Below are positions 217 to 7,045 of a stretch of 51,601 nucleotides of DNA, piece after piece. The position numbers and the translations under genes are program-made. Below the pieces are notes generated by a model, which was not told the origin of the DNA, ran no database searches, and was given only the letters and a program-made list of their open reading frames with translations. The stretch spans positions 1 through 51,601 of IMG/VR virus record IMGVR_UViG_3300032265_000046; one strand, written 5' to 3'. Each line of letters starts with the position of its first letter. The stretch's first letter is position 1. This DNA comes from a virus.

Positions 217-334
217 GTTCTTCAACGTCGTTTATCTCTTCGTCCAACTGTACGTCAGCACCGCCATCAGCGTTGTTTTTAATCCCGTTTATGAATCTAT
301 CAAACTCTGGATCATTGGGCATTTCAGTTGCCAT
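1..334 (-). CDS. Portal protein, N-terminal part (continues across the map junction)
   Basis: This is the start of the portal gene, whose remainder is at 49209-51601. The ATG at 334 opens MATEMPNDPEF and the frame stays open to base 1, giving about 111 residues. Residues 49 onward match the first residues readable at the right end (GEDKGPEED...), with one Glu/Asp difference. The joined protein would be about 836 residues. The start overlaps the last 11 bp of the upstream 1362-residue gene, a typical coupled arrangement. The first 48 residues are acidic and exist only in this copy. A portal forms the dodecameric DNA channel at one capsid vertex and docks the terminase. Confidence 0.88.
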   Translation of the reverse strand, partial: MATEMPNDPEFDRFINGIKNNADGGADVQLDEEINDVEELEDGSAIVRLGEDKGPEEDAEFYENLAEEAVNLYDLDKVGMRYIDLIEKDKEARKNRDKQYEEGLKRTGLGN

Positions 335-3300
335 ACATATTCCTTAAAAAATTATTTGAGTCTTCATAACTTAAAACTTGTCCACCCTTGGCGTAAAAAC
401 TATGCGGAATGATGTTCTCACCATCCGTTACGTCAGGCGTTGTGTCGCTCATATTGACCACACCTCCGCCAGCCATCTTGCGATGGTGATTGTTTAGGGC
501 ATCTAGCCATGACATTTGTTCCACAGAGCCTCCGTCTTTATGACCTTCTTTTTGAAGGTTGGTTAAATAGTCTTCGCTTACAAATTGCTTGGGCGTTGTT
601 GCCGTCAAGTCTTTGTGACCCATCGGTTGGGGATTGCCTGCCTTGTTCTTACGATTTGCATATTTAGCCACAAAGTCAGGCGCGGCAAACTCAACAGGGG
701 CTGGCTCAAACAACAAGCCAAGGTCAGTGCCAGTCACTTGATGTGGGAATGCCGCATTGAGATCAGGGCGATAGATGCCCGTGTCGCTATCAATAGTGAA
801 CAGGCGATTGCCTACAGCGTATGTAGGCGAGTTGGCTAACAATGGGTCAGTCTCTTCTCTAATAATCTTGAACGCTTCTTGCGTTGCCTTTTCGCCCCGC
901 TTCTCTCCGCCCATCGTCATAGCCTGCGCTAACACTTTGCGTTGGTCAAATGTCTTAGCCTTATCCAATACGGTTGGGTCGCTGACATCAATGCCTTCAG
1001 GAAATATTAATTTGCCAGACTTTGGGTGAACAGCACCGTTGACCTGCGCATTCATTTTGTCAATTAAGTCAGCAGAAGGGTTAGCCGCTCTATGCGCCTC
1101 ATACATACGCTCAACAGTCACTGGGTTACTCATGTGCTGAGTTGGTGAACCAACAAAGGTTGACCAAACAGTGTCTGGAGTATTGGCATTTATTAGGCGA
1201 GTGGCGTGGCTAGGTTTACCTACGCCCCAAGTCGTACCCGCTTTCTGGTGTGGTTTGCTAGTTAACTGCAAGCCAGAGAAACCTGTCCCACCTTTGTTGG
1301 GGCCGAACACTCGGGATCGATCAGCCTGCGTTAGGTTGAGAGTCATGCCTTCAGCGCCAGCATTACCCAAAGCCTCAGACATACGCATAATGTCTTTAGG
1401 ATTCATTGGATCAGCAAAGTCAACGCTTGGTACACCCAACCCGCGAGCGCGAAGTGCGGCTTCCTCTGCCTTGCTGAGTTTGGTTCCAGCCTTGCCTAGT
1501 TTGGCTAACGCGCTGAGTCCGCCAACCTGCATATGGATAGCGCCACCTTCTGCCATGCCTTCTGGTGGTGGCGGAAATCCATATTGCTCATGCATAAATT
1601 TAGGGTCTGCCTTGGACCTAGTTAAATTTAAGTAGTCGTATATAAGTTTTTCGTGTTCTGCGTCGGTTAAATATTCTGGAACATTCATGCCAGCATCGGC
1701 AAAACTTGCACGTTCAGGAACACTTTCAATATGTTTTAAACCAGTGTTTTGCAAATCACCAACTTCTGTATATTTACCGCTCTTTACAAAGTCTTGGATG
1801 TAAGGCAAATACTCTTTGTTTGGAGCGGCGTTCTGTTTACCTTTGATTTGAGTAATATATTGGGGCATATTGCCAATTTTTTCTTTATAAATGTCATCAA
1901 TGTGTTTATATAAATCGTTTGATGCCTGTGCTCTTTGTTCGCTGTTTGCGTTTTGAACCCACTCTTTTTGATTTTCTGGAGTGATGCCCATTCTTCGCTT
2001 TGCCTCAACCATTGCTTCACTGTAGTCAAGCCCAGCCTTTTTAAAATTTTGTGGCGTTGCTAAATTAGTTTGATTGACTTCTATCGTTGCGTGCGACATT
2101 CCTTTTGGATCACGCAAAGAATAAATCTTAGCGGCTCCAGACTTGATTGCTTCATATCCACCATGACCGTAGTCGTTATAACCAGAGTTGCCAGAGATGT
2201 CTGTCCAATCAGGGTGACCTTGTGGGGGTTCGTATCCACGAACAGAATGACCCATGATGTCAGACTCCAGCGCAAACTGCCCCGGCTGGTCTAACTGCAC
2301 CCACTTGTATCCTTCAGGATATTCTTTGTGAACCTTAGCGCTTGTCTGCTCTGCAACTCTAGCATTGAGCATCTTTTGCTTGAGTTCCTCGTCATACTGA
2401 TGAGTGCGACGTACCGCGTCTTCCATACTCACCTTATTGAGTTGCTCAGGGCGGATGCGACCTGCGGCTACGTCTTCACGCAACACATCCATGATGTGGT
2501 CAAAACCCATCTTGCTAAAGTCAGCATCTGTATTCAGGGAATAGATGTTTGTCTCTGGGTCTAATTTATTTACCCACGGCATATCTGCTGTGTTTCCAAC
2601 TGGTCTCTGCATACTTGGTAAAGCCTGTATGCGTTGATAGTGTTTAGCCGCAATTGGGCTGATTGCTTGGTCAGCCAAAAACTCATAATGCTTTGCCAAA
2701 GGGTTTTGGGCTACGCCCTTAACAGGCGAACCAAATTCTTCTCGTCTTCCTTTGACATCAAAGTTGGGAAATGTATGCAACTCCAAGTCACCATATTCAT
2801 CCACGTTTTTAGGGAAAGCGGTGATGCCCTCCTCAGCCAACTTGCGCACTGGGTCAGCCTCAGTACCCATTTGCTTAGTGATGTAGTTGCTAAGGTTCGA
2901 TTTAACCCATTTGTTGGTGGCTTCGTTACCAATTGCATTTTGCAAATCTCTGGTAAATCCTGCTACTTGGGGCGCGTCTCCTCTTGCAACTGCATCCTCA
3001 AGCATTTCCTTGATGTATTGACTATTAGGATTGTGTTTACCCTTTTGAAGATTTTCTAACTCGCGGTCAAGTTGTGTTCTGTACACGATGCGGTCAGTAG
3101 ATGGCAACCAATTGCCATCAGTCGGTTTGACAATGTGCATTACTGGTGGGTTGGCAAGGGATGCAGGCACGCCGGGGATTAGGGACTGACCCGTTGCAAT
3201 CCTATGTCCAGCAGTCTCTGCCAACTCTTTACCTAAAGTTTTAGCACCTTTATAAGCAGAGCCAAGCGCATGAAAGCCCGAGCCGGGGCCAGTGTAGAAC

Positions 3301-4412
3301 GAGCCACCCAACTGTCCCAACCCAGTAGCCGCACGACTCACTGGCGTATCCGACTTAAATGGCAGGCGCTTCTCAATCTCTTCGCTGGTCGGCAGGATAG
3401 TCTTCTCATCTAGATACGGCAACATACGAATGAGGGACTCTAGGTCACCCAACTGTCCTAGCGCTCCAGCCACAAACCCTCTTGCCGCATCGACAGGCAC
3501 ATTCTTTGAAGCCTCGCGGTCTTGGTGCGCACGCCTTGGCTTCATCTGTGGCATCACGCCAAACGCCGCTCCACCATCTGCAAATCTTGAGAGTCCGCCT
3601 TGGATTGAACCGCCGTCGGCATATATGTCTGGCAAATCAACTCGCGGACGTTTGATATCTTCTTGCCTGAGATTATCAAAATAGACTTGTGGTCTGACTT
3701 TGTTATTGGTCATCTCAAGTTCTTGTTTGAGAGCCTCTATATATTCTTCTTGCGTACGTCTAGGTAAGGGTTCACGCAACTCACGCCTTGGCAACAATTG
3801 CACAAGATTGCTTTGCTCTCCCATATTCGCTATGGCGCGGTTTCTATGCCGACCTTCATGCCCAGTGATAAACGGAACCAGTGGCAATCCCTGTTCTTCC
3901 TTATTGATAAGCAAATATGGAACGTCAGCAAATCCGCCTTTTACATTTGATAGGCTATCAATGTACTCAGACAACGTCATGTCTTTCATTGAGTCATCAA
4001 GGAACTGGCTTCCATATCCGCGATGCGCCTGCGGACTACTCATGTAGTCTGGAATAGGCGTTGCATACTTTTCAAAGTCTTGCGGTTTTATTGTCATCAT
4101 TGCGGCGGCATTGTCTCCAGTAAACGCATCCGCTAACGCATCGTGGGTGTACATCCTCTCAAGGTTCGGTATCTCATCAGCCGCACGCTCGACACGCCTT
4201 GCGCCGTAGTTGCCCTTTATGTTGCGCACCGCTTCTCTGACGTTGTTCAGTTTACCGGGGACAACAATGCCCGGGGCTGGCAAATTGATACGCGCAGTTG
4301 GCATCATGTCAATGCGCATTTGCTTTTCCGCTTGCGATGCCAGCGCTTTTTGCCAAGACGACTCGTTTGAGAGACTGGTCAATCCTTTAGCAAGTTTGGA
4401 GTAGTTAGGCAT
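324..4412 (-). CDS. Large polyvalent-type protein (1362 aa), probably virion-associated
   Basis: This giant protein sits between TerL and portal, 2 bp after the terL stop, and is translationally coupled to both. Visible blocks are an N-terminal region with GHEGRHR at residues 184-190, resembling ParB-like or polyvalent-protein domains; a Gly/Ala-rich helical stretch around 305-400; a block near 745-895 with YGHGGYEAI and QIKGKQNAAP, as in phage large polyvalent protein domains; and a C-terminal domain around 1000-1280. The blocks are separated by A-x-G-G motifs: YADGGS at 264, FADGGA at 277, MAEGGA at 953, HKDGGS at 1291, MAGGGV at 1313 and YAKGGQ at 1340. No catalytic site is certain. I infer a packaged or ejected multidomain protein; the order of blocks is secure, the function is not. 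Confidence 0.75.
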   Translation of the reverse strand: MPNYSKLAKGLTSLSNESSWQKALASQAEKQMRIDMMPTARINLPAPGIVVPGKLNNVREAVRNIKGNYGARRVERAADEIPNLERMYTHDALADAFTGDNAAAMMTIKPQDFEKYATPIPDYMSSPQAHRGYGSQFLDDSMKDMTLSEYIDSLSNVKGGFADVPYLLINKEEQGLPLVPFITGHEGRHRNRAIANMGEQSNLVQLLPRRELREPLPRRTQEEYIEALKQELEMTNNKVRPQVYFDNLRQEDIKRPRVDLPDIYADGGSIQGGLSRFADGGAAFGVMPQMKPRRAHQDREASKNVPVDAARGFVAGALGQLGDLESLIRMLPYLDEKTILPTSEEIEKRLPFKSDTPVSRAATGLGQLGGSFYTGPGSGFHALGSAYKGAKTLGKELAETAGHRIATGQSLIPGVPASLANPPVMHIVKPTDGNWLPSTDRIVYRTQLDRELENLQKGKHNPNSQYIKEMLEDAVARGDAPQVAGFTRDLQNAIGNEATNKWVKSNLSNYITKQMGTEADPVRKLAEEGITAFPKNVDEYGDLELHTFPNFDVKGRREEFGSPVKGVAQNPLAKHYEFLADQAISPIAAKHYQRIQALPSMQRPVGNTADMPWVNKLDPETNIYSLNTDADFSKMGFDHIMDVLREDVAAGRIRPEQLNKVSMEDAVRRTHQYDEELKQKMLNARVAEQTSAKVHKEYPEGYKWVQLDQPGQFALESDIMGHSVRGYEPPQGHPDWTDISGNSGYNDYGHGGYEAIKSGAAKIYSLRDPKGMSHATIEVNQTNLATPQNFKKAGLDYSEAMVEAKRRMGITPENQKEWVQNANSEQRAQASNDLYKHIDDIYKEKIGNMPQYITQIKGKQNAAPNKEYLPYIQDFVKSGKYTEVGDLQNTGLKHIESVPERASFADAGMNVPEYLTDAEHEKLIYDYLNLTRSKADPKFMHEQYGFPPPPEGMAEGGAIHMQVGGLSALAKLGKAGTKLSKAEEAALRARGLGVPSVDFADPMNPKDIMRMSEALGNAGAEGMTLNLTQADRSRVFGPNKGGTGFSGLQLTSKPHQKAGTTWGVGKPSHATRLINANTPDTVWSTFVGSPTQHMSNPVTVERMYEAHRAANPSADLIDKMNAQVNGAVHPKSGKLIFPEGIDVSDPTVLDKAKTFDQRKVLAQAMTMGGEKRGEKATQEAFKIIREETDPLLANSPTYAVGNRLFTIDSDTGIYRPDLNAAFPHQVTGTDLGLLFEPAPVEFAAPDFVAKYANRKNKAGNPQPMGHKDLTATTPKQFVSEDYLTNLQKEGHKDGGSVEQMSWLDALNNHHRKMAGGGVVNMSDTTPDVTDGENIIPHSFYAKGGQVLSYEDSNNFLRNMYGN

Positions 4413-4414
4413 AG

Positions 4415-5833
4415 TTACACCGCATATGGGTTGACCCGCGCAGGTTGGGCATCGAAGTAATCGTCGTCGTCGTCATCATACCGAGGTTCAGGGTCAATGT
4501 CGAGCCAGCCCATGTCTTTTAACCAACGCATCGCCTGAGTCGCTGAGTCCACATAGTCATCATGCTGTGAGTCAGGGAAGGCGCATATCTGGGACAGGAA
4601 CCCTTCAGCCCAATCCTTCACATAGCCCTTATGCACCTCGGACTCTGGGAGCCAGACACGCTTGGCAACAAAGATAGCCGCAGTAATCTGTAGGCGTTGC
4701 ATCTTGTCAGCCCGACCGGGGTTATATCCCCGCACCATCAAGTGCGCCTTCTGCAACTCTTGAATCAGAGACAGACCCGCCGCCTTCTCCTCCACCAGTA
4801 TCAGGTCAGGGCGCTTGGCATCTCTGCCTTCACCGTAAGACACTCGCCACTCGTCCTGCGCCCGCTCCTTGAGTTTAGGGAAGGTGAGGTGTTCTGCCCA
4901 GCAGTCAATCAGGAGCACGGACATCGGGCCGTCCTGTGGCTTGAACACTCCCCACGTTGTCATCGCCGTCGGGTCGTTGTAAGACTTGTCGGTGTAGGCG
5001 CAGTCATAGGACTGGATGATGTACTCGAACTTAGGGAAGGGCTTACCAGCAGGCCACATCTTGAACATATCCCTGCTCACCACCTTGCCGTCTTCGAGGT
5101 CTACCACCTCGCCGAGCACCTCCTGCTGATACAACTTCGTACCCTTGTACTGCTCAAGTTGCTTGCTGAAGGTAGCCGCTAAGTTGGCTTTGTTCTCGTA
5201 GGTGCTGGCGCGATCAATGATTACGTCGTCACCCTCACGGCTTATCAGGTCAAGGATTAAATCCTTTGGGCGCGGTGTCGTGGTCACAATCACACGAGGT
5301 TGGTCGCCCAGACGCAAACCCATCATCATCATGTCCCACGCCTCACCAGCGCCGAGGTATTGGAATGCCGCCAACTCGTCCGCCCAGCACCAATGGAACT
5401 GCGGGCCGCGTAGTCGCTCATAGGAGTCAGCGCTAATGCCACGAATGCTCGATCCATTGGACAACGTAATCTCGTGGTCTTGTTTGTTGTACTTAGCCAC
5501 CAATTCAGGAGGGATGTTAGCGAGCAGTCCTGACTTGCCCTCGAAGCAGGTGAACTTGATGTCGTTAGATGTTGGAGCCAACACCAGCCCACGGGAGCCG
5601 GGGTGCGTCCAACACCACCACCAAAGCGCATGGCTACCAGCATGGGACTTGCCCGCGCCCCTGCCTGCAATCAAAGCCCACACCGTCCAATCCAACTCCA
5701 ACGGCGGAGGTATCTGGTACTTGTGGGCGCTCGCCACCCACTCAAGGTGAGCGATTAACGCAATGCGGTCGTGCTCTGGCTTGGCGTTGAACTCCGCCTG
5801 AACTTCTGGGTCTTCGAGTAGTTCTGTTAACAC
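4415..5833 (-). CDS. terL: Terminase large subunit (packaging ATPase/nuclease)
   Basis: The 472-residue packaging motor translocates DNA into the prohead through the portal and cuts concatemers. The N-terminal ATPase shows Walker A GRGAGKS at 57-63, Walker B HWCWADE at 147-153 with catalytic Glu153, and the TTTPRP coupling motif at 184-189. The C-terminal RNase H-like nuclease shows SYDCAYTD with Asp277, LVEEKAAG with Glu348/349, and HDDYVDS with Asp425/426. An unusual Asp run (residues 453-458) lies near the C-terminus. Length and motif order are normal. It follows terS by 76 bp and precedes the 1362-residue gene by 2 bp. Confidence 0.97.
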   Translation of the reverse strand: MLTELLEDPEVQAEFNAKPEHDRIALIAHLEWVASAHKYQIPPPLELDWTVWALIAGRGAGKSHAGSHALWWWCWTHPGSRGLVLAPTSNDIKFTCFEGKSGLLANIPPELVAKYNKQDHEITLSNGSSIRGISADSYERLRGPQFHWCWADELAAFQYLGAGEAWDMMMMGLRLGDQPRVIVTTTPRPKDLILDLISREGDDVIIDRASTYENKANLAATFSKQLEQYKGTKLYQQEVLGEVVDLEDGKVVSRDMFKMWPAGKPFPKFEYIIQSYDCAYTDKSYNDPTAMTTWGVFKPQDGPMSVLLIDCWAEHLTFPKLKERAQDEWRVSYGEGRDAKRPDLILVEEKAAGLSLIQELQKAHLMVRGYNPGRADKMQRLQITAAIFVAKRVWLPESEVHKGYVKDWAEGFLSQICAFPDSQHDDYVDSATQAMRWLKDMGWLDIDPEPRYDDDDDDYFDAQPARVNPYAV

Positions 5834-5909: not shown

Positions 5910-6494
5910 TTAGCCAGCACGTTTAGTCATCTCGATGTTTTTAACGATCTCTGTAAACCTGTCTATGCTTTTGTTTTCAGTGGCGATAGGCGCTCCACCC
6001 ACTACGCCCTCAACAGCAAAGCGGTCGCCGTACTTGCGTGGCTTGAGTTTCGCCGCCGTCCACTTGCGTGCCTCTATGCGACTCCTCTGCCAGTTGATGT
6101 AGGTTGCGTCCAGCGTAGTGCGACCGTCTTTGTCGGTGTACTCAGGAGGGTGCTCATCAGCGATCTGGAGGATTTCGTCAGCGTTAGTGTCAGCCTGATC
6201 CTCTCGTGCGCGTGCGTACATATCGCAGAAGATTGGGAAGCGAGCCAACCAACGATAGATTGTTGCGACGTGCGGTAGGTGGTCGTCCTTGCACATTTGC
6301 ACTAATGGCTCACCGTGAGTGAGTCTCCAGCATATCTCGTCTGCTATAGCGTCTGTGAACTCTACTGGTCTACCAATGGGGACTTGTTTTGCGGGGTCTG
6401 GAGCCTTTGCGGGCGCGGTAGCACCCTTTGCCTGTGTCTTAGGCTTTAATGGCTTAACGGGGCGTTTTGTCCCCTTCTTGGCGGTTTCTGGCAT
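5910..6494 (-). CDS. terS: Terminase small subunit
   Basis: This protein recognises phage DNA and hands it to TerL. After a basic, low-complexity N-terminus rich in Lys, Pro and Ala, an HTH-type segment contains HLPHVATIYRWLARFP, followed by a helical oligomerisation region (ARAREDQADTNADEILQIADE), as in Sf6 gp1-like small terminases. I chose the ATG at 6494 (MPETAKK), giving 194 aa. The open frame extends to a TTG at 6539, but that codon overlaps the predicted promoter -10 and lacks a ribosome site. The position directly before terL supports the call. Confidence 0.9.
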   Translation of the reverse strand: MPETAKKGTKRPVKPLKPKTQAKGATAPAKAPDPAKQVPIGRPVEFTDAIADEICWRLTHGEPLVQMCKDDHLPHVATIYRWLARFPIFCDMYARAREDQADTNADEILQIADEHPPEYTDKDGRTTLDATYINWQRSRIEARKWTAAKLKPRKYGDRFAVEGVVGGAPIATENKSIDRFTEIVKNIEMTKRAG

Positions 6495-6529: not shown

Positions 6530-6559
6530 AGTGTATCAAACCTTTATGGTTTTCGCCAA
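6530..6559 (-). promoter_or_regulatory. Putative promoter for the terminase/late operon
   Basis: On the minus strand TTGGCG (6559-6554) is followed, after 18 bp, by TACACT (6535-6530), preceded by TGA in the extended -10 position. The transcript would start just ahead of the terS ATG at 6494. The match is moderate. The TGATACACT stretch also occurs in the rightward promoter at 14299-14307, so both may be read by the same polymerase form. Confidence 0.5.
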
Positions 6560-6564
6560 TAGGT

Positions 6565-6771
6565 TGTTGGTGGATGTTTGGGTTTCAGGCTTACAACACA
6601 AGTCCCGCACATGGCAGTTCCCCGTTACATCGGGTGGCCTTACCTCCACCAACACGGCTGGGGACTGTTACCGATCTTTCACGGAGCCGTAAACAGCATT
6701 TACAACAGTCCTCATGCGTGATGGCTCCGAGTCGCCCTCCCTCGGATGCTTTGTCCCGAATTCCACGGGCT
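6565..6771. other. Dense inverted-repeat region before terS: candidate structured RNA or packaging site
   Basis: About 200 bp hold many perfect inverted repeats: 6565-6574 with 6645-6654 (10 bp); 6662-6669 with 6704-6711 (8 bp); 6682-6688 with 6723-6729 (7 bp); 6726-6731 with 6741-6746 (6 bp); 6689-6693 with 6699-6703 (5 bp, 5-nt loop); 6633-6637 with 6646-6650; 6621-6624 with 6631-6634; 6601-6606 with 6661-6666. The 8-bp and 7-bp stems cross, giving a pseudoknot topology around the 5-bp hairpin. Some other stems exclude each other. The strand is undetermined. A 78-codon frame covers most of it on the minus strand. Confidence 0.5.
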
Positions 6772-6827
6772 TGGCCTACTTCACCTATATAAAGATTACA
6801 GACCTCCGAAAACCATTGTGAAACCAT
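6591..6827 (-). CDS. Small Cys-rich hypothetical protein (78 aa), doubtful
   Basis: The frame starts at an ATG sharing one base with the stop of the preceding membrane protein gene (TAATG), an arrangement that favours real translation. It has a CCKCC cluster near residue 41 and a basic middle part. I recognise no family. Against it, base composition differs from its neighbours, the residue composition is odd, and the same DNA carries strong inverted repeats that could be RNA structure. It is either a small phage protein or an accidental frame over a structured element. Confidence 0.4.
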   Translation of the reverse strand: MVSQWFSEVCNLYIGEVGQARGIRDKASEGGRLGAITHEDCCKCCLRLRERSVTVPSRVGGGKATRCNGELPCAGLVL

Positions 6828-7045
6828 TAAGGTTTCTTAACTCCTTCACACAAGTCCCCGACGTAGGCTTTTGGCTTTTGCTGAACACATTCCTGCTCAG
6901 TCAAATTAAAGTCTGGAACCCACGCCAAAAGAAACACAACCAACAAAACCATTATAGCAATTCCAACCTTTTCAAACAAGGTTTCTTCTGGTATTTGCTG
7001 GCTCGGGAGATGACTCATCATCTCGTCTATTTCCTGCTTGTTCAT
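6827..7045 (-). CDS. Small single-pass membrane protein (72 aa)
   Basis: An acidic N-terminus of about 25 residues is followed by one hydrophobic segment, VGIAIMVLLVVFLLAWV (about 27-43), then a short tail with two cysteines. There is no recognised family. It overlaps the preceding gene by 4 bp and the following frame by 1 bp, so it belongs to the early leftward operon. A cell-envelope or superinfection role is possible but unsupported. Confidence 0.75.
   Translation of the reverse strand: MNKQEIDEMMSHLPSQQIPEETLFEKVGIAIMVLLVVFLLAWVPDFNLTEQECVQQKPKAYVGDLCEGVKKP

Follow-up and report, generated by a model that had tools for sequence, protein, structure and literature searches.

A candidate structured RNA of uncultured viruses, with a constant two-helix frame and exchangeable inserts, at a cargo site upstream of terS

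The window considered here, by which is meant the whole 51,601-nucleotide stretch of the IMG/VR virus record IMGVR_UViG_3300032265_000046, carries a structured RNA element immediately upstream of the genes for the small and large terminase subunits, terS and terL. The gene strand around the element is the minus strand, along which a 72-amino-acid open reading frame (ORF) at 7045–6827 is followed by some 330 nt without a convincing gene, and then by terS and terL. The element lies within this interval and is built from a short 5′ hairpin (H0) and two abutting helices (H1 and H2), each of which encloses an insert. Comparison with related viruses establishes H1 and H2 as RNA helices, fixes the strand on which they are read, and shows that the inserts are swapped at exact borders, that the locus can be dispensed with and that each genome has one such locus. 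The parts of the locus are as follows, where L002 and L004 are two relatives discussed below.

6746–6566, minus strand (that of terS): candidate structured RNA gene, an H0, H1 and H2 frame with two inserts
6726–6746, minus strand: H0, 5′ hairpin TCCGAG-GGAGGGCGA-CTCGGA with GCCAT right after it; a hairpin here is in excess over the units
6706–6719, minus strand: H1 5′ strand, ACG-CAT-GAGGACTG, recognised by covariation and a covariance model (R1) match; CAT is one side of a conserved internal loop
6668–6705, minus strand: insert 1, 38 nt, an exchangeable module within H1, which contains the 6682–6688 arm of a pseudoknot claimed earlier
6654–6667, minus strand: H1 3′ strand, CAGTCCCC-AGC-CGT, 100% identical in L002 and L004; AGC is the opposite side of the internal loop
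6647–6653, minus strand: H2 5′ strand, GTTGGTG, of a 7-bp acceptor-like helix with no gap to H1
6575–6644, minus strand: insert 2, 70 nt, an exchangeable module within H2, only 38% and 33% identical to its counterparts in L002 and L004
6566–6572, minus strand: H2 3′ strand, CACCAAC, then a conserved AACC tail (6565–6562) with A at the discriminator position; swap border at ACCAACAACC
6530–6559, minus strand: weakly supported promoter-like stretch before terS (TTGGCG, 18 nt, TACACT), located between the RNA and terS
5910–6494, minus strand: terS, Sf6-type small terminase (PF20901), likely start ATG at 6494
4415–5833, minus strand: terL, after terS
6827–7045, minus strand: the 72-amino-acid ORF (MNKQ...), upstream neighbour of the cargo site

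A first-pass annotation of the window, made from the single sequence, had drawn attention to inverted repeats in this region. Three long perfect repeats are indeed present, of 10 bp (6565–6574/6645–6654), 8 bp (6662–6669/6704–6711) and 7 bp (6682–6688/6723–6729), and the latter two interleave as it described. Taken alone, the repeat content of the single sequence is just marginally above chance: three perfect repeats of at least 7 bp compare with a shuffle mean of 0.94, three being reached in 18 of 300 shuffles and the 10-bp arm being matched in one of 300, while as many repeats occur in 42 of the 499 stretches of 207 nt compared across the genome. The RNA folding energy has a z of about −1.6 on either strand, and the number of 4–10 bp inverted repeats, which had been offered as a signal, is uninformative, there being 60 repeats of at least 4 bp. 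The deciding evidence comes from relatives.

Eighty contigs with a related TerL were gathered, among which blastn revealed two short conserved islands 5′ of terS within otherwise dissimilar sequence, and from these the consensus was drawn. A scan of IMG/VR with AGYCYYCAGYCGTGTTGG gave at least 120 stretches with the arm, and about 180 distinct units could be assembled. The two-helix frame is common to well over a hundred uncultured viruses. The consensus runs from H0 through AGCCAACACG, CAT, GGGGATTG, insert 1, CAGTCCCC, AGC, CGT-GUUGGUG, insert 2 and CACCAAC to AACC. In other words, H1 pairs ACG-CAT-GGGGATTG with CAGTCCCC-AGC-CGT, and H2, which directly abuts it, pairs GUUGGUG with CACCAAC. 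Insert 1 is mostly 20–106 nt long and insert 2 about 30–160 nt. The window copy has a single A–C mismatch in H1 (6712/6661) and two additional pairs in H2 (GA, 6645–6646); the covariance model R1 matches it at 6724–6633 with 32.5 bits (E 5e-6), the opposite strand scoring 17.4.

Covariation was assessed on an alignment (A1) of 80 distinct unit rows against 500 shuffles. The cells of H1 and H2 are 97.8% paired (90.5% when shuffled), 101 of them are changed on both sides (24 when shuffled) and the covariation score is 0.293 (0.144 when shuffled); none of the shuffles attains these values of pairing or covariation, and sliding the partner abolishes the signal. The helix positions of H1 are 98–100% paired, and there are arm pairs in which both strands are fully exchanged, namely GACCATTG/CAGTGGTC (in L082) and GCTGATTG/[TC]AGTCAGC. 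One H1 pair is a conserved U–G wobble in 70 of the 80 units, which argues for RNA and not for folded DNA. In H2, two variable pairs within GUUGG are 91% and 94% paired, against 73% and 60% when shuffled, and the pair beyond the seventh is at chance; as a family, therefore, H2 is exactly 7 bp long. An alternative pairing of a 5′ CCAAC with GUUGG was considered and set aside, having no covariation support and 13–24 unpaired cells in its three inner columns. As for H0, 29 of 96 non-tandem units have a stem of 5 bp or more whose end falls exactly 6 nt short of the ACG of H1, against a background of about five per position. Its stem sequences differ among units, the loop is often of GAAAGA or GNRA type, and in many tandem arrays the preceding H2 occupies the place of H0.

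These comparisons partly confirm what the first-pass annotation observed and lend partial support to its interpretation. Its 8-bp stem is mostly H1 and its 10-bp stem is H2, both of which are kept with compensatory changes, whereas the 7-bp partner that would complete a pseudoknot is not kept. The insert arm of that pseudoknot (6682–6688/6723–6729) is found only in the window and in a near-identical copy, L009; the pairing is not conserved because the 6682–6688 arm sits in insert 1, which is replaced wholesale in relatives. A 78-amino-acid reading frame also crosses the region, and kept codons in it, together with stems lacking compensatory change, had been named as the pattern to be seen if no RNA were present. 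The outcome is the opposite on both counts, the frame stopping after 31 codons in L002, 17 in L003 and L004 and 14 in L028, and having no Pfam or PHROG match. A protein-coding reading of the frame is accordingly rejected.

What becomes apparent from the units as a set is that the frame stays and its contents change. The 179 units clustered comprise 103 insert-1 clusters and 114 insert-2 clusters in 168 combinations, with 35 insert-1 clusters paired with at least two different insert-2 partners and 24 insert-2 clusters behaving likewise in the other direction. Five clusters have members at both insert positions, the largest being the GGGTTAGCGCCG...CACTGCTTTATGTGAGC module; one of the five (around L082) is partly an artefact in which a tandem unit is read as an insert. 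The exchange is seen most closely in the window, L002 and L004, whose TerL is 100% identical, with downstream flanks 97% and the upstream ORF 88–89% identical. Here the swap borders fall at the scaffold arms: insert 1 of the window is 61% and 42% identical to those of the two relatives, next to an adjoining arm identical throughout. The only homologue of the window's insert 2 among the clustered units is in another phage, L088, with a compensated hairpin (CCCG/CGGG against CCUG/CAGG). On these alignments, both inserts are shown to be exchanged with exact borders between phages, even where TerL is 100% identical.

Exchange of this kind might be taken to point to an element acting as DNA, the arms forming a folded single-strand or inverted-repeat site that moves cassettes, as does integron attC with its variable terminal structure. 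Conserved inverted arms, an unpaired middle or spacer, a variable tip, exact swap borders and the cassette-like occurrence of the same modules at both positions are all in keeping with this. Against it stand the conserved U–G wobble and GU pairs, which are of RNA type, the shortness of the exchanged inserts, which contain no genes, and the tRNA-like folds found at H2. Moreover, the scaffold core GTTGGTG, with its sixth base mostly T, misfits the attC core G^TTRRRY, and the 21 copies counted within 5 kb upstream of terL all lie on the terL strand, whereas half would do so were orientation the only factor. The neighbour clusters read showed no recombinase gene, no systematic search for one having been made. 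A recombination element at the DNA level is unlikely.

The position of the element within the genome is instructive in a different regard. Among TerS relatives the cargo site is the interval between an MNKQ-type ORF and a conserved TACACT before terS. A scaffold unit occupies it at about 40 loci, and in L017 it has a form with H2 only; it is almost empty in L057, L077, L078, L080 and L041. A canonical tRNA-Thr (TGT) gene stands there in L050 (4046–4121) and L058 (508–583), and in L012, L020, L040, L046, L054 and L071 the place is taken by another element, unrelated to the scaffold, whose hairpins covary (CAAGGC..GCCTTG and CAAGGG..CCCTTG). Also seen at this site is a small cysteine-rich ORF (MHFINDWKTCKCGLQYQDVNF...), in L044 (about 5080–5320) and L068 (about 5110–5300). 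Gene-content comparison of this kind shows the RNA locus to be dispensable cargo, present as a rule at one locus per record in one to three tandem copies.

A position just before terS and terL had suggested a pac or cos site, or a packaging-type RNA, to the first-pass annotation; the reading weighed here is such a site or a packaging RNA like that of phi29. One would expect an element of this sort in every relative that shares the terminase; instead, the site is empty or replaced in about 25 TerS relatives, whose terS and terL are retained, and an indispensable packaging signal or packaging RNA is therefore excluded in this lineage. The inserts are, moreover, unrelated among phages with identical TerL, and in several other phages the RNA is unlinked to the terminase, being far from it or on the opposite strand. 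A packaging element is thus the least probable of the readings weighed here, and a highly improbable one. The tendency to precede the terminase is nonetheless a genuine one across phages, and that part of the earlier suggestion stands.

The extent of this tendency was gauged on 32 records with a unit and a recognised TerL, from phages found without reference to the terminase. In 16 of the 32 the unit shares the strand of terL and lies no more than 2 kb to its 5′ side, where 1.2 would be expected and none of 20,000 random draws reaches that number; within 5 kb the count is 21 of 32 (2.6 expected), and the terminases so linked are of different families. Nine of the 32 are more than 5 kb from terL; five units are on the opposite strand at 10–19 kb, and some others are far away. 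In L193, L198 and their relatives the unit precedes a gene with the motif VVDALPDNLKK.KGRPKGS, perhaps another type of small terminase.

Because of this link, the strongest rival to the reading preferred below is an element acting in cis where the late (terminase) operon begins, as a leader or in antitermination, resembling the HK022 put RNA or a regulated leader, and the abutting helices could fold as such a transcript emerges. A leader should, in this regard, keep a fixed relation to the gene that it regulates, but the distance from unit to next gene varies from about 20 to more than 400 nt, the downstream genes differ and 9 of the 32 units lie beyond the 5 kb. The RNA is absent from the same site in close relatives, with a tRNA gene there instead in L050 and L058. 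In addition, a −10-like TACACT stands between the RNA and terS, and recurs before terS in relatives whether or not they carry the RNA, although the promoter-like sequence of which it is part scored below threshold in a consensus promoter scan. The variable spacing and the intervening TACACT weaken the suggestion that the element is a late leader for terS, and a cis-acting role appears rather improbable.

No copy of the scaffold turned up among GenBank phages or plasmids, and about 20 common inserts sought in isolate phages gave no match. The 53 pattern matches in bacterial genomes are mostly chance occurrences within genes, with true units only in L209, L226, L228 and L242. These four carrier assemblies are from Burkholderiales, Nitrosomonadales and Polynucleobacter, and freshwater betaproteobacteria are therefore the likely hosts; in the host family of L242 the unit occurs in 1 of 299 genomes.

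The dimensions of H2 invite comparison with tRNA. The Rfam tRNA model (RF00005) matches the H2 domain of L178 (606–713, 44 bits) and of L190 (653–756, 40 bits), both matches beginning at the first G of GUUGGUG, to which tRNA position 1 aligns; as in a tRNA acceptor stem, the covariation of H2 spans 7 pairs, and an A stands next at the discriminator position. In contrast, the window and most units are unmatched by this model, insert 2 bearing as a rule no relation to the D, anticodon or T arms; neither ARAGORN nor Rfam finds these arms in the window copy, and they occur in only a few relatives (L178 and L190). At seven arrays there are tRNA genes on the same strand no more than 300 nt from a unit, against 1.3 at random with a maximum of five in 1000. 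Phage tRNA genes and clusters, which are also small RNA cargo and have been described as anti-defence agents (PMC11555353), share with the element this acceptor length, the occasional tRNA-like fold and the presence of tRNA genes beside the scaffold or in its place. They differ in that the window copy has no anticodon, that H1 is an extra helix with its own insert, and that the inserts are unrelated in sequence.

It might be supposed from these likenesses that the RNA is of translational type, a diverged tRNA-like or tmRNA-like molecule serving to supplement tRNA. The acceptor-length helix with its discriminator A, the tRNA-like fold of some units and the tRNA genes that adjoin some units and replace others would all fit, but an anticodon and the D and T arms are missing from most inserts, those of the window among them. 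ARAGORN detects neither tRNA nor tmRNA in the window or at the units of the relatives scanned, and H1 has no tRNA counterpart. A translational role is considered quite unlikely.

The tRNA connection extends to the inserts. The insert-1 module of L181 (GCTATCGGCTCACCGTTGAAA..ACGGACAAGT) stands alone in the tRNA-cluster spacers of T4-like, Schitoviridae and Otagovirus phages, where it has no Rfam entry and is unannotated as such. Conserved over about 45–60 nt (GCTATCGGCTCACCGTTGAAAGAATACGGACAAGTCGGC..CGAC), it lies between the tRNA genes of such phages in L253 and L254 (1501–1550 in each), L255 (1501–1553), L256 (1501–1550) and L257 (1501–1557). On visual inspection, L257 (Pseudomonas phage Astolliot) also has at about 1697–1895 an RNA of some 190 nt that resembles a tRNA, having CCA and the acceptor, D and T arms; a very long domain replaces the anticodon arm, and Rfam gives just a weak tRNA match inside.

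No Rfam 15 family matches the window element, at the gathering score or at E values up to 10, in accord with the earlier suggestion of a structured RNA outside known classes. Such a family is described neither in Rfam 15 nor in the literature searched, outside which lay bioRxiv and most subscription papers, such that a prior description is possible. To our knowledge there is no RNA family in which a constant frame holds unrelated domains exchanged between genomes. The ornate RNAs GOLLD and ROOL (PMC12286853) are likewise structured, noncoding, in several cases phage-borne and of unsettled function, but are far larger. ToxI and the pseudo-ToxI of phage PhiTE (PMC3475682) resemble the scaffold in the way they work only, being short structured RNAs in tandem repeats that are involved in RNA evasion of a host nuclease; in the scaffold the frame is constant while the content varies, and although tandem units occur, the window pseudoknot is not conserved.

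The explanation preferred, tentatively and with a likelihood a little short of even, is an accessory, trans-acting structured RNA in which a constant frame presents two interchangeable domains, with a decoy or anti-defence function included. Its structural part, an RNA frame with exchanged inserts carried as dispensable cargo, is on its own very probably correct. The frame runs from H0 to H1 with its near-invariant CAU/AGC internal loop, and on to the adjoining 7-bp acceptor-like H2. The RNA may be transcribed together with the operon upstream or start at a promoter close by, and could be trimmed at H2 in the manner of a tRNA, while homologous recombination in the conserved arms would exchange the inserts. 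Most speculatively, the inserts may be binding or decoy domains directed at host factors that vary, defence enzymes that target RNA being one example, in which case swapping them would change specificity. The terminase link would then mark a favoured site for accessory genes at the head of the late region and not a role in packaging. The idea of a decoy derives from the constant frame, the fast-changing content, the tRNA-like company and the precedents for RNA-based evasion, in which phage tRNAs counter retron-Eco7 and PrrC (PMC11555353) and PhiTE mimics the ToxI antitoxin RNA (PMC3475682).

Several points weigh against this accessory-RNA explanation. The strong excess of units 5′ of terminase genes is left unexplained by a decoy, and none of the inserts has been connected with a defence system or a host factor. 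The transcript itself is a candidate, read from the DNA: the units' own promoters are inconsistent, with just a weak excess of −10 sequences, and a good −10 stands at the right place for a dedicated promoter at the 5′ end in only 7 of 103 units. Finally, folding of the inserts relative to shuffled sequence is modest (mean z of −0.7 for insert 1 and −0.3 for insert 2), and therefore not every insert need be structured.

A further thought is that the inserts face a host sensor, the RNA being an immune trigger whose sequence varies to escape sensing, as might be drawn from the cabRNA of staphylococcal phages (PMC10686824). Both are structured RNAs from the terminase region, and the high turnover of inserts in the scaffold family would suit such a role; cabRNA, however, is transcribed from the terminase genes, where the scaffold RNA stands apart from them as an intergenic unit whose inserts can be swapped. 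Since the locus can be lost outright, as the empty sites attest, a purely harmful trigger should be lost and not kept, yet the scaffold is retained while its inserts change. A trigger or sensor-facing RNA is very unlikely.

Were the preferred explanation extended to its fullest form, the element would be a phage-borne RNA display platform, with a fixed frame of two helices, tRNA-acceptor-like, and about two hundred kinds of RNA domain shuffled through recombination, each inhibiting or decoying a different host factor. This form is doubtful, but would, if true, place a whole class of RNA anti-defence agents in one recognisable format. Should the inserts prove to be specificity domains, the frame becomes a search handle that lists some two hundred natural RNA domains traded by phages, each of which could be tested against defence systems in laboratory strains. 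Because one module occurs there alone, the frame also offers a handle on the unassigned small RNAs of phage tRNA clusters. Function aside, it exposes a noncoding RNA cargo that phages with an identical large terminase have exchanged, and hence within a short time.

Some smaller features of the window remain to be described. Two AAACC-N5-GGTTT palindromes (6821–6835 and 6538–6552; AACCGAGTCGGTT in relatives) flank the RNA, the downstream one overlapping the promoter-like sequence of terS, and both have the appearance of operator-like DNA sites. An outer 10-bp repeat (6546–6555/6807–6816) was considered as a conserved closing stem of the RNA and rejected; it arises from these two palindromes, the downstream one of which is absent or changed in many relatives. 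Beyond terL, a 1362-amino-acid ORF without a PHROG match occupies 324–4412, with a portal gene at the opposite end of the contig (49209–51575), an arrangement that gives the record the look of a circularly permuted genome whose cut falls after the 1362-amino-acid ORF.
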